In this document: in pieces, positions 3,542 through 8,121 of the stretch
How positions within the stretch are numbered: the stretch's first letter is position 1
How the letters are laid out: each line of letters begins with the position of its first letter
NCBI GenBank assembly: GCA_003557545.1
Contig: PWOD01000191.1
Location: 1 to 8,121, forward strand
Length of the DNA: 8,121 nucleotides
Source: a bacterium
GTDB lineage: Bacteria; T1Sed10-126
Direction of reading: 5' to 3'
The notes under the pieces: generated by a model
What the model saw: only the letters and a program-made list of their open reading frames with translations
Database searches by the model: none
What the model was told of the DNA's origin: nothing
Translations under genes and position numbers: made by a program

Positions 3542-4176
3542 CGATGTTTTGTCGAGCAGGTTGGACCGGCCCCCTTGAAATAGTATAAGGTCAAGCGTTT
3601 AAGTGAACCTGTTTTGTTTCCACGTCGTCTGGACCCGGGTATGGAGCTTGTCCGGGATGGGATGGAGTGGCTGTTTTTCTGGCCCAGGTGACCCGGCATA
3701 TACCGGACAAGGGACAACACTTAACTCGTTATTATGGCTGGTATTCCAACGTATTTAGAGGTCGGCGGGCAAAAGCCGATGGTGAGCAGGGGAGCGAGTC
3801 CACCTATGTGCTGCCCGCTCCCCGGGCACACAAAAGATGGGCTATGTTGATCAAGCAGGTGTATGAGGTTGATCCATTAAAGTGCCCGGAATGCGGTGGC
3901 GAGATGAAGGTCATTGCTTTCATCCGCGACCCGAGGGTGATCTTCCGGATCCTGGATCATCTGGATTTGCTGGAGTCCTCCGGTAAAGACCCACCCGGAG
4001 ACCCGCCGGGTTCGCCTCTCCGGTATGAACCCGTTTTTGATGATCTGCCCTGGGGCGATGATCCCTTTCACGTCTGTTGGATTCTTCTCCAATCCATTAA
4101 TCGGGGAGAAAACCGTGCCGGTCTGGTGCTGATAAGCCCGATTATGTCAATGAATGAAGGAAACGGATATGTTTAA
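3542..4176 (+). pseudogene. IS91-family transposase remnant (C-terminal part)
   Basis: Remnant of an IS91-family (Y2_Tnp, IS801/IS1294-like) rolling-circle transposase. The clear part is the frame from 3661: LAQVTRHIPDKGQ, LTRYYGWYSN, RGRRAK, then KQVYEVDPLKCPECGGEMKV and FIRDPRVIFRILDHL. The HIP-RYYG-YSN block and the EVDPL-CPxCGG-M-V-FI-D-VI--IL-HL block are typical of these transposases. Upstream, the frame through 3641 reads DPGMELVRDGMEWLFF, matching the segment before that block, so the reading frame shifts near the T run at 3673-3677. The upstream frame also has a TAG at 3581-3583. The catalytic tyrosine region and N-terminal zinc finger are absent. It is therefore dead, and marks an old insertion next to the truncated uvrA. 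The left limit is uncertain; only about 3640-4176 is firm. Confidence 0.85.
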
Positions 4177-4219: not shown

Positions 4220-4248
4220 TTGTTTACCTACTCAAATTCCCGTATAAT
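4220..4248 (+). promoter_or_regulatory. Candidate sigma-70 promoter at the uvrA junction
   Basis: TTGTTT (4220-4225) and a perfect TATAAT (4243-4248) are separated by 17 bp. It lies between the transposase remnant and the uvrA fragment and points into the fragment. Transcription would begin near 4255. If it is used, the TTG at 4220 and the ATG at 4247 would not be in the message, and translation would need a later start. Confidence 0.5.
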
Positions 4249-5389
4249 GGTCAATACTATAAAACTCAAAAAAGCAATTTCTTATATAGTTGACCTGGTG
4301 GCGGAAGGAACCCCGCAGGAAGTGATGAAAAACGATGATTCTCTTACCGGCAGATTCTTGAGCGGTAAGCACACTGTTTCCACTGATTATTCAAAAAATA
4401 AAAAGACTAATAGGGAAATAACTCTGCACGGCGCCAATTTACACAACCTGAAAAATCTTTCCGTATCTTTTCCAGTAGGACTTATGACATGTGTAACCGG
4501 TGTGAGCGGTTCGGGTAAAAGTAGCCTTGTCTCTCAGACACTTTTCCCGGGCCTCGCTAACAAACTGCGGGAGAACTGTTTGCTTGATAACCTCTGCTCG
4601 AGCATCGAAGGTGAACACTATATTAAACGGGTCATAGAAATAACCCAGGCTCCGCTGAGTCGTAATTCACGCTCAATTCCAGCAACCTACGTATCAATCC
4701 TTAAAAAGATCCGCAATTTATTTGCAAACACAGAAGAAGCTCAACAAAGAAACTACAGCGAAGGACATTTCAGTTTTAACACAACTAAAGGTCGCTGCCC
4801 GGAATGTAAAGGGCAGGGTGAAAAGAAGGTCGAGATGCATTTCTTATCAGACATCACAATCCCCTGTTCAAACTGCGGCGCACAGCGCTTTAAAACCGAA
4901 ATACTTGAAGTGAAATATAAAGATAAAAGCATTGCCGATGTGCTTAACATGGATGTGGATACTGCTTCGGAGTTTTTCAAAGAGGAAACAAGTATTTCCT
5001 CCACTTTGAACATTCTGCGCGAGGTGGGGCTTGGCTACATCAAACTGGGTCAGTCGACTCCCACCCTCAGCGGTGGCGAGGCCCAGCGATTGAAATTAGC
5101 CAGGGAATTAAGCAAAACAGGCGGCCAGAGCACTCTCTACATTCTTGATGAACCGACAACCGGTCTTCATTTTTATGATATAGAGCATTTAATTTCTCTG
5201 CTCCAACGACTAACTGCAGCCGGCAGCACCGTCATCATAATAGAACATAACCTCGACGTAATCCGCGCCGCTGACTGGGTAATAGACCTCGGCCCCGATG
5301 GCGGAAATGCCGGCGGCGAAATCCTCTTCCAGGGGCCACCCGAAAAACTACCCCACGCCCCGGATTCAATCACCGGACAATATTTATAG
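4220..5389 (+). pseudogene. uvrA: UvrA-family protein, C-terminal half only
   Basis: C-terminal half of a UvrA-type ABC ATPase, the DNA-damage-binding subunit of nucleotide excision repair (or a UvrA2-like paralogue). Full proteins have about 940 residues in two ATPase halves; this frame has at most 389. Homology begins at about residue 24 (VDLVAEGTPQEV), the end of the first half, and then covers the whole second half: Walker A GVSGSGKSS (94-102), zinc finger CPEC (193-196) and CSNC (216-219), ABC signature LSGGEAQR (283-290), Walker B TLYILDEPTTGLH, and the switch His in IIIEHNLDVI (343). The first 23 residues look unrelated and come from the junction. The start is unclear: TTG 4220, ATG 4247 or ATG 4325, none with a convincing ribosome site. 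There is no internal stop or frameshift, so either the truncation is recent or a half-size product is kept. Loss of the first half probably goes with the adjacent IS91 event. Confidence 0.8.
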
Positions 5390-6653: not shown

Positions 6654-7568
6654 TTATTTCCGGCACAATTCGTAAACAAAACCGGGTACAAGCCGGCGCA
6701 GGGTGTCTGTATTATAACCGCCTTCAAGCAGTGCAACCACCCTGTTTTCACAGTGTTCTTCAGCAAACATTCGTAACCCACTCGCCAGTTCCAGAAAATC
6801 ATTATCACTCAGTTTTAGCCCGCCGAGCGGATCATCACGGTGGGCGTCAAACCCGACGGAAACCAGCAAAATATCAGGAGCAAACTCTTCGAGCGCGGGC
6901 AGTGCTTTCGCCTGCCAGAGCGGTTCCAGGATATTCCAGCCAGAACCGGCCGGCAGGGGAAGGTTCAGGGTCGCCCCCTCTCCATCCGCTTGGCCACGTT
7001 CACTTTCCACTCCTCCCCCGGGATAGAAAGGATGCTGATGAAAACTCAGGTAAAATAGATCCCCCCGGTCATAAAAAATCTCCTGGGTCCCGTTACCGTG
7101 GTGAACATCGATATCCACAACAGCAGGACGCAATCCGCGGCTCACCATATCTTCAGCCAGGACGGCAATATTATTAAACAGACAAAACCCCATCCCTTTC
7201 TCGCTGCAGGCATGATGACCGGGCGGACGCAGGGCGGCAAACCCGTTCTGTCCCCGGCAAGCCATATCCCCGAGCATCAGGGCTGTTCCAACCGCCTTCA
7301 GTGCAACATCATAACTATTTTTGCACAACGTAGTATCCTCTGCCAGCGAACGCCCCGCTGACGAAAACCGACGGACCTGTTCAACATAATGAGGGGGATG
7401 AACTGCGATAAGTTTTTCCATGCTGCAACCCTGCGCCTCATGGTAAGTCCAGGTTTTATCGGACTCCTCAACCCCCTCTCGAACAGCCCGCACACGAGCC
7501 GGCGACTCCGGATGCCCCGACCCGGTATGATGCTCCTCAAAAACAGAATCACAAACCACAACAACCAA
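6654..7568 (-). CDS. Histone-deacetylase-family amidohydrolase
   Basis: Zinc-dependent deacetylase of the arginase/HDAC fold (bacterial HdaH/AcuC/acetylpolyamine amidohydrolase group), 304 aa from the TTG start. It hydrolyses an acyl-amide; candidate substrates are acetyl-lysine or acetylated small amines, and the sequence does not decide which. Motifs: HTGSGHPESPARV near the N-terminus; RPPGHHA with the active-site His pair (about 118-119); GFCLFNNIAV; DIDVHHGNGTQ with zinc ligands Asp154 and His156; the third ligand Asp241 in SVGFDAHRDDPLGG; and the transition-state Tyr285 in LEGGYN. The frame extends 42 codons upstream to 7694, but that stretch crosses the divergent promoter region and does not match the family. 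TTG at 7568 has GAGGTGG (complement of 7574-7580) correctly placed and leads straight into the conserved VVVVCDSVFEEHH. First gene of an operon with the M28 peptidase; divergent from the ArsR-type regulator. Confidence 0.92.
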   Translation of the reverse strand: MVVVVCDSVFEEHHTGSGHPESPARVRAVREGVEESDKTWTYHEAQGCSMEKLIAVHPPHYVEQVRRFSSAGRSLAEDTTLCKNSYDVALKAVGTALMLGDMACRGQNGFAALRPPGHHACSEKGMGFCLFNNIAVLAEDMVSRGLRPAVVDIDVHHGNGTQEIFYDRGDLFYLSFHQHPFYPGGGVESERGQADGEGATLNLPLPAGSGWNILEPLWQAKALPALEEFAPDILLVSVGFDAHRDDPLGGLKLSDNDFLELASGLRMFAEEHCENRVVALLEGGYNTDTLRRLVPGFVYELCRK

Positions 7569-7573
7569 ACCAA

Positions 7574-7580
7574 CCACCTC
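7574..7580 (-). promoter_or_regulatory. Ribosome site fixing the deacetylase start
   Basis: Read on the minus strand, this is GAGGTGG, a close match to the anti-SD complement. GAGG ends 8 nt before the TTG at 7568. This supports a 304-residue protein over the longer open frame. Confidence 0.65.
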
Positions 7581-7581
7581 A

Positions 7582-7622
7582 ACGTGTATTACATGTGCAC
7601 AATTGTCAACATATAGTACATA
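7582..7622. promoter_or_regulatory. Palindromic operator candidate, copy 1
   Basis: An imperfect palindrome centred on CAATTG (7599-7604), with arms containing GTATTACATGTG on the left and CAACATATAGTACAT on the right; 15 of 21 positions pair about the centre. It lies between the divergent deacetylase and ArsR-type genes and covers the -35 box of the ArsR promoter. It also contains a TTGACA on the minus strand (complement of 7604-7609). Position and symmetry suit a binding site for the dimeric ArsR-type repressor controlling both directions. A second copy, identical at 35 of 41 positions, lies at 7989-8030. Confidence 0.7.
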
Positions 7623-7631
7623 AGGTATTAT
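7603..7631 (+). promoter_or_regulatory. Promoter of the ArsR-type gene
   Basis: TTGTCA (7603-7608) and TATTAT (7626-7631), with a 17-bp spacer; each box matches consensus at five of six positions. The -35 box lies inside palindrome copy 1, so a bound repressor would block it, which suggests autoregulation. For the divergent deacetylase gene I see a TTGACA but no convincing -10 at the right distance. Confidence 0.65.
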
Positions 7632-7674
7632 TTTTACTGCAGTTCTTATCTTTTTAGGAGGTGTCTTTAGTATA

Positions 7675-7980
7675 ATGGAAAAAATTAAAAACATCGACGA
7701 GTTTGTTCATAGACTCAGTAATTTTTTTGATACGATTGGCAATGCAGTACGCTTGCAGATTTTGCTCTATCTCAAAAAGTCTCCACTATGTGTTTCTGAC
7801 ATCGCCGACAGGCTTGACCGCAAACGTTTCACAATCTCCAGACATCTAAAAATTCTTCGGGACAACGGTCTGGTAAAATCAGAAACAAAAGGCAAATTCC
7901 GCTATTACAGCTTAAAAAGGCCTGACCTTGTCGAAGAAACACTAAAAATATATGAATTACTGACAAGAGAAACCAAATAA
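7675..7980 (+). CDS. ArsR-family winged-helix transcriptional regulator
   Basis: Small DNA-binding regulator, 101 aa, of ArsR/SmtB type. DTIGNAVRLQILLYLKK (about 19-35) is the usual entry to the winged helix; SDIADRLDRKRFTISRHLKILRDNGLV (41-67) is the helix-turn-helix; KSETKGKFRYYSL (68-80) is the beta wing. These proteins bind palindromic operators as dimers and mostly repress. The arsenic-sensor ELCVCDL motif is absent: the equivalent is PLCVSDI, with one Cys only (Cys39), and the C-terminal helix has no His/Asp cluster. A metal-sensing role is therefore not supported and the signal is unknown. The start is ATG at 7675 with AGGAGG at 7656-7661; the 13-nt spacing is long, but no other in-frame start is near. 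It is divergent from the deacetylase/peptidase operon, its likely target, and is flanked by two matching palindromes. Confidence 0.92.
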   Translation: MEKIKNIDEFVHRLSNFFDTIGNAVRLQILLYLKKSPLCVSDIADRLDRKRFTISRHLKILRDNGLVKSETKGKFRYYSLKRPDLVEETLKIYELLTRETK

Positions 7981-7988
7981 ATCCCGAG

Positions 7989-8030
7989 ACATGTATTACA
8001 TGTGTGCAATTGTGAACATATAATACATGT
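7989..8030 (+). terminator. Palindrome copy 2, terminator-like
   Basis: A 42-bp palindrome with 17 of 21 positions paired and an uninterrupted 10-bp outer arm (ACATGTATTA with TAATACATGT). It is centred on CAATTG and followed at once by a run of T (8030-8036). It starts 8 bp after the ArsR-type stop and lies between convergent genes, so it can act as the terminator of the regulator. It is also a near copy of the upstream palindrome (7582-7622), so it may bind the same regulator. The stem is AT-rich, which makes it a modest terminator. Confidence 0.6.
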
Positions 8031-8044
8031 TTTTTTGGGGGTGG

Positions 8045-8121
8045 TTAGGGGGTGGCGTAGTTGCGGAATTTTGTTATTTCTTCGCTGTCGCCGATAACTA
8101 CTATAAATTCGCCGGGTTTTA
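8045..8121 (-). CDS. C-terminal end of a protein, possibly RCK_C/TrkA-C (partial)
   Basis: On the minus strand the frame reads KPGEFIVVIGDSEEITKFRNYATP and then TAA (8045-8047); the rest lies beyond the window. The pattern PG-FIVVIGDSEEI-KFR resembles the last strand and helix of TrkA-C (RCK_C) domains, which end potassium-uptake regulators and several ion transporters. With only 24 residues this is a suggestion, not an assignment. It converges on the ArsR-type gene. Confidence 0.6.
   Translation of the reverse strand, partial: KPGEFIVVIGDSEEITKFRNYATP

Follow-up and report, generated by a model that had tools for sequence, protein, structure and literature searches.

ArsR/SmtB repressors, such as SmtB, CzrA, NolR and HlyU, have short palindromic operators in promoters and are usually autoregulated. 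A different type of organization is that of the REP-RAYT units, where a gene lies between inverted palindromes, gene and palindrome coevolve, and solo copies of the palindrome occur (PMC2817692). REPs with a CGTC tag are reported to exist without a dedicated transposase (PMC3733652). In the literature, which was covered in part, no paper was found that links ArsR proteins with REPs or with 3′ operators.

The window, i.e. the whole 8,121-bp stretch of DNA analyzed, is the entire contig C109 of an assembly of 2.15 Mb in 239 contigs, and the contig end is therefore about 90 bp beyond the second of the two palindromes dealt with here. A preliminary description drew attention to two 41-bp palindromes bracketing an ArsR gene, one over the -35 box of its promoter in a divergent region and the other just past its stop codon with a T run at its end, and these features are borne out (Table 1). 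A mechanical repeat search retrieves the two copies in these places, 88% identical over 40 nt with a spacing of 407 bp (35/41 positions identical when counted by eye). The predicted TTGTCA (7603-7608) is inside copy 1, with TATTAT at 7626-7631, though such consensus matches barely exceed chance there. Matches between the copies number 34 in the central 40 nt and only 18 and 15 in the 44-nt flanks; similarity thus drops at the palindrome edges, and what is repeated is the palindrome and no further sequence. The best 40-nt direct repeat observed matches at 35/40, with 26/40 the maximum in 500 dinucleotide shuffles of 7491-8121. Symmetry around CAATTG is 14/20 in copy 1 and 16/20 in copy 2, whose 15-nt arms are 93% complementary and whose RNA fold is at -17.8 kcal/mol (z -4.1); no significant stability was found for the RNA fold of copy 1. 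The proposed check for further copies in the host genome, allowing up to 3 mismatches, gave two sites, both in the window, which is not what is expected of a many-copy dispersed repeat.

Table 1. Features of the right-hand part of the window
Feature	Position	Strand	Remark
Histone-deacetylase-family gene, divergent to arsR	6654..7586	-	start uncertain, about 7565
5′ palindrome (copy 1), centre CAATTG	7582..7622	.	likely operator of the ArsR-type protein, as read from sequence
Predicted sigma-70-like arsR promoter, TTGTCA 17 TATTAT	7603..7631	+	consensus match only
arsR-like gene, 101 aa, winged helix	7675..7980	+	PF01022 2.9e-14
3′ palindrome (copy 2), starting 8 nt past the arsR stop codon	7989..8030 (end 8029/8030)	.	
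T7 run directly past copy 2	8030..8036	+	may act as a weak terminator together with the hairpin
Convergent gene, 3′ end (ending EEITKFRNYATP, then stop), truncated by the contig end	8047..8121	-	read from sequence

The encoded protein has the HTH_5/ArsR domain and the winged-helix fold by which membership of ArsR/SmtB is judged, scoring 79 bits with NF033788 (cut-off 55), and the structure predicted for the monomer is an ArsR fold (pLDDT 90) with CzrA/SmtB as the top structure matches. Fold and family domain are thus those of the known repressors. However, on motif inspection both the alpha-3N CxC and the alpha-5 DxH...HxxE metal sites of that family are absent and, with a single cysteine (C39) and no histidine in the last helix, the protein has neither classical metal site. 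The other difference from these repressors is the presumed operator copy directly past the stop codon, the sites in relatives being arrays of 8-bp half-sites. A signature shared with its own family is Y-x-L-K-[KR]. Copy 1 is between the arsR gene and the divergent HDAC-like gene; the HDAC gene of relative G001 has no ArsR neighbor, and so the association is not conserved. Elsewhere in the window, 4220-5389 (+) encodes the C-terminal part of UvrA, with only model positions 571-937 of about 940 present, and the neighboring ORF at 3667-4176 (+) has a marginal match, just below cut-off, to the end of the Y2 transposase PF04986; to judge from the sequence this stretch is likely decayed or rearranged. 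Rfam gave no match within the window.

When sites were compared in related genomes, as had been proposed, homologs in the family proved to lie beside palindromes too, each having its own and not the window sequence. The closest host paralogs, L020 (C26) and L022 (C120), are each beside their own, different palindrome, and likewise the homologs L005 (C45) and L019 (C109) in G001. The palindromes of L020, L022 and L005 are, in that order, CACATATTCACAATTGTGAATATGTG, CGTTTGAACAATTGTTCAAACG and ATTCTTACGATCGTAAGAAT. L019 has, on the downstream side only, six tandem 41-bp palindromic units, TTTCGTCCATGGACGAAA (L019:1841-2074, G001:C109), in what is a polysaccharide/nucleotidyltransferase neighborhood. 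No such palindromes were found at the remaining ArsR-domain genes of the host and G001. A profile of the window protein and these four, applied to 386 genomes, led to a second, unrelated lineage, family f106, where L088, L089, L102, L107 and L109 have identical 20-mers on either side of the gene. A second profile, used on 7 genomes of the f106 phylum with palindromes being no selection criterion, gave 11 loci, and in 10 there is a palindrome or 8-bp half-site array directly 3′ of the stop codon, with a 5′ copy too in L199, L202 and L204; L209, the lowest scoring, has neither palindrome nor array. The site is 3′ only in L200, L203, L206 and L207 and, with four or more members being without a 5′ copy, promoter autoregulation is not universal in the family. 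Among 88 ArsR proteins placed in a tree, the 21 rows of the family cluster with three others at weak support (SH-aLRT 80). The family was seeded in part from loci already known to be bracketed, and members are not independent of one another. It is fairly probable that a site-arsR-site module characterizes an ArsR subfamily of its own, one that is probably non-metal-sensing.

Several individual loci merit mention in their own right. The ArsR gene of L207 (G106:C64) is frameshifted relative to its ortholog L203 (G242:C26), and its 3′ palindrome is unaltered. L201 (G386:C327) and L208 (G387:C52) are ArsR genes of the family that have arrays of 8-bp half-sites and adjoin what, named by eye, are apparent genes for an N- or C-subunit of transketolase, as if insertion had taken place within that operon or at its border. 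L021 (G050:C11) is an ArsR gene outside the family group of the tree that has matching ATATATGAATATTCAT-type sites (18/20) on either side, and twin sites are thus not strictly confined to the family. The nearest tree relative outside f1 and f106, L211 (G133:C75), has a 15/16 palindrome with a T-run 15 nt past its stop codon, and may be an extension of the family or simply have an ordinary terminator. By protein comparison, the ArsR proteins in plasmid and phage collections were all ordinary and distant (<60% identity), and IMG/VR had neither relatives of the protein nor an exact match to the palindrome.

Many of the family palindromes consist of half-sites spaced at 8 bp and oriented head to head. 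Arrays include TATGTTCG TATGTTCG TATA TACGAACA TACG in L202, four repeats of TATGCGAA in L208, and TTGACCAA TTGACCAA TTGGTCAA in L204. With 16 hand-picked palindromes, self-match at lag 8 is 57% compared to 26% in pairing-preserving shuffles (z 16), lag 16 being second. A blind lag-8 score for the 100 nt past the stop codon averages 11.5 over the 21 family loci and 7.5 over 92 ArsR loci outside the family (p 1.5e-10), and none of the other lags from 4 to 13 separates the family at p<0.01. With the profile-found loci alone, the signal is present in 7/11 versus 3/92 (p 1.8e-6). The lag-8 and shared-site measures were adopted because a plain post-stop palindrome score, tried as a marker and rejected, gives only moderate separation of the family; ordinary terminators of Bacillus orthologs score with it too. 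In the window's own palindromes 8-bp periodicity is weak if present at all, and for that reason none is claimed there.

Among 18 members, palindrome similarity rises with protein identity (rho 0.44, with 0/999 permutations as high), and the correlation stays positive below 50% protein identity. Between L089 and L199, which are from different genera, the palindrome is kept at 32-34 of 40 positions and the flanks at only 11-17 of 44, and L088 and L200 have a 20/20 stretch in common. The proteins of L107 and L109 are 81% identical and their palindromes are different; at an orthologous solo site with well conserved flanks (L155 in G106 and L161 in G242), the palindrome is L107-type in one species and L109-type in the other. 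Since palindrome sequence tracks protein sequence, the palindromes are very likely to be sites to which the regulators themselves bind.

A cousin of the window cassette has been dispersed in G106. There the L107 cassette is present as two copies, 98% identical over 483 bp and with unrelated right flanks (C118 and C71), as an 83% copy (C39), as an internal-deletion derivative (C84) and as pieces (C77 and C146). In addition there are about seven solo palindromes (C71:7983, C23, C118:17332, C2, C30, C113 and C29) with 86-100% identity over about 34-69 bp, and sites of the cousin in this genome total about fifteen to twenty. The solo copies are intergenic and, being upstream of some genes (e.g. 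glyQ) and downstream of others, are unlike a simple regulon. Cassettes at different loci have different neighbors. Solo copies are also present in G242, a 96% complete assembly in which no gene matching them was found, and in the window's host the L022 palindrome recurs on C97 where there is no ArsR gene. One G242 solo palindrome, L162 (C12), is beside a tRNA-like sequence; its left flank has a match at one locus of G106, and on the right 36 bp of flank are similar to a different locus (those compared being L159 on C29 and L157 on C30), raising the possibility, from sequence comparison, of a rearrangement breakpoint at the palindrome.

The explanation favored here, and considered fairly probable as a whole, is of a site-arsR-site module in which the two palindromes would be binding sites of the protein encoded between them. 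With copy 1 over a predicted -35 and in a divergent region, autorepression is the natural reading, and sites that are cognate, with negative autoregulation from the 5′ copy, are a likely component; that copy may also act on the divergent HDAC-like gene. A consideration against is that 41 bp exceeds the length of palindrome that one ArsR dimer needs. The 3′ copy would be a second bound site, hard against the stop codon. Going by position only, the role favored for it, tentatively, is that of a protein-bound boundary, or roadblock, which would limit read-through from the small regulator gene as well as into it, in the window with help from the hairpin and T-run. Sites of this kind have, in some lineages, been multiplied genome-wide in the manner of REP elements. 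The original proposal had one copy as operator and the other as terminator. Its operator part is favored indirectly by the palindrome-protein covariation and by the L089/L199 palindrome having been kept amid diverged flanks, but as a general rule the split does not hold, as a T-run follows the 3′ palindrome in the window only (members being read by eye). In a related alternative, copy 2 is built, by happenstance, from a duplicated operator and serves chiefly to terminate transcription, possibly in both directions between the convergent genes. The 8 nt separating it from the stop codon, the convergent gene beyond and the strong hairpin followed by UUUUUUU are in keeping with this, but its stem is A+T-rich, a terminator scan found none, and 3′ palindromes of other members are, by eye, without a T-run. 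As the main function it is considered rather unlikely; termination by hairpin and T-run as something special to the window locus is plausible. A further proposal was of looping, with regulator dimers on the two copies, 407 bp apart, interacting to strengthen autorepression. Near-identical sites at a loopable distance, and paired sites in many family members, are what it would entail. However, the 101 aa contain no oligomerization domain, to our knowledge no ArsR protein bridges sites, and looping is not the general role since L200, L203, L206 and L207 have the 3′ site alone; it is given a low probability.

The strongest rival, and one compatible with the binding-site explanation, is that the palindromes are the ends, or solo derivatives, of a copied REP-like mobile cassette, with the ArsR-type protein being its dedicated DNA-binding partner, not a regulator of host genes, and with movement requiring a host-supplied nuclease or recombinase. 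This has perhaps a third part of belief. The twin 98% cassettes of G106 with their deletion derivative, partial copies and solo palindromes, the changing surroundings of the cassette, the G242 solo copies for which no matching gene was found there, and the gene-between-palindromes layout and coevolution shared with RAYT/REP units (PMC2817692) all point to it. Against it, the encoded protein has no nuclease, the window palindrome occurs only twice in its own genome, and the neighborhood of L203/L207 is conserved, which argues for vertical inheritance of that cassette. Y1 transposases are present, but none is flanked by such palindromes; RAYT (Y1) transposases as the palindrome source were accordingly rejected, with Y1 genes in all five genomes and no matching palindromes around them. 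The mobile-repeat alternative in the preliminary description gains no support from the window palindrome, with its two host copies, but does from the cousin cassette in G106. Chance, or an unrelated dispersed repeat, has nothing to commend it beyond how often palindromes occur near genes in general; as stated it is refuted both by shuffles that reach 26/40 at most where 35/40 is observed and by recurrence of the layout throughout an ArsR protein family, and is left with practically no probability.

The resemblance to REP-RAYT units (REPtrons) and BIMEs (PMC2817692, PMC3733652) is that two palindromes enclose a single gene and covary with its protein, and that solo palindromes are dispersed in some genomes. 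The differences are that the bracketed gene is for an ArsR regulator instead of a Y1 (HUH) tyrosine transposase, that a constant GTAG or CGTC tag is absent from both window copies, and that copy number is low, at two in the window's genome and about fifteen to twenty in G106. The 5′ units in G106 begin GTAGTTGCG; the 3′ copies do not. CGTC-tagged REPs are similarly dispersed extragenic palindromes without a transposase of their own, but no partner gene is reported for them, and the paper makes no mention of ArsR (PMC3733652). It is possible, if somewhat doubtful, that there is a REP-like repeat class with a nuclease-free winged-helix regulator, i.e. a selfish cassette of regulator plus own operator that spreads with its sites.

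What emerges is an ArsR subfamily that, in far-apart lineages, is recognizable by an array of sites where its gene ends, on the 3′ side. It offers many natural protein/site pairs which, given their covariation and the periodicity of the half-sites, could allow an ArsR recognition code to be read. If the dispersal in G106 is cassette-driven, repeats could spread with a transcription regulator as partner instead of a transposase.
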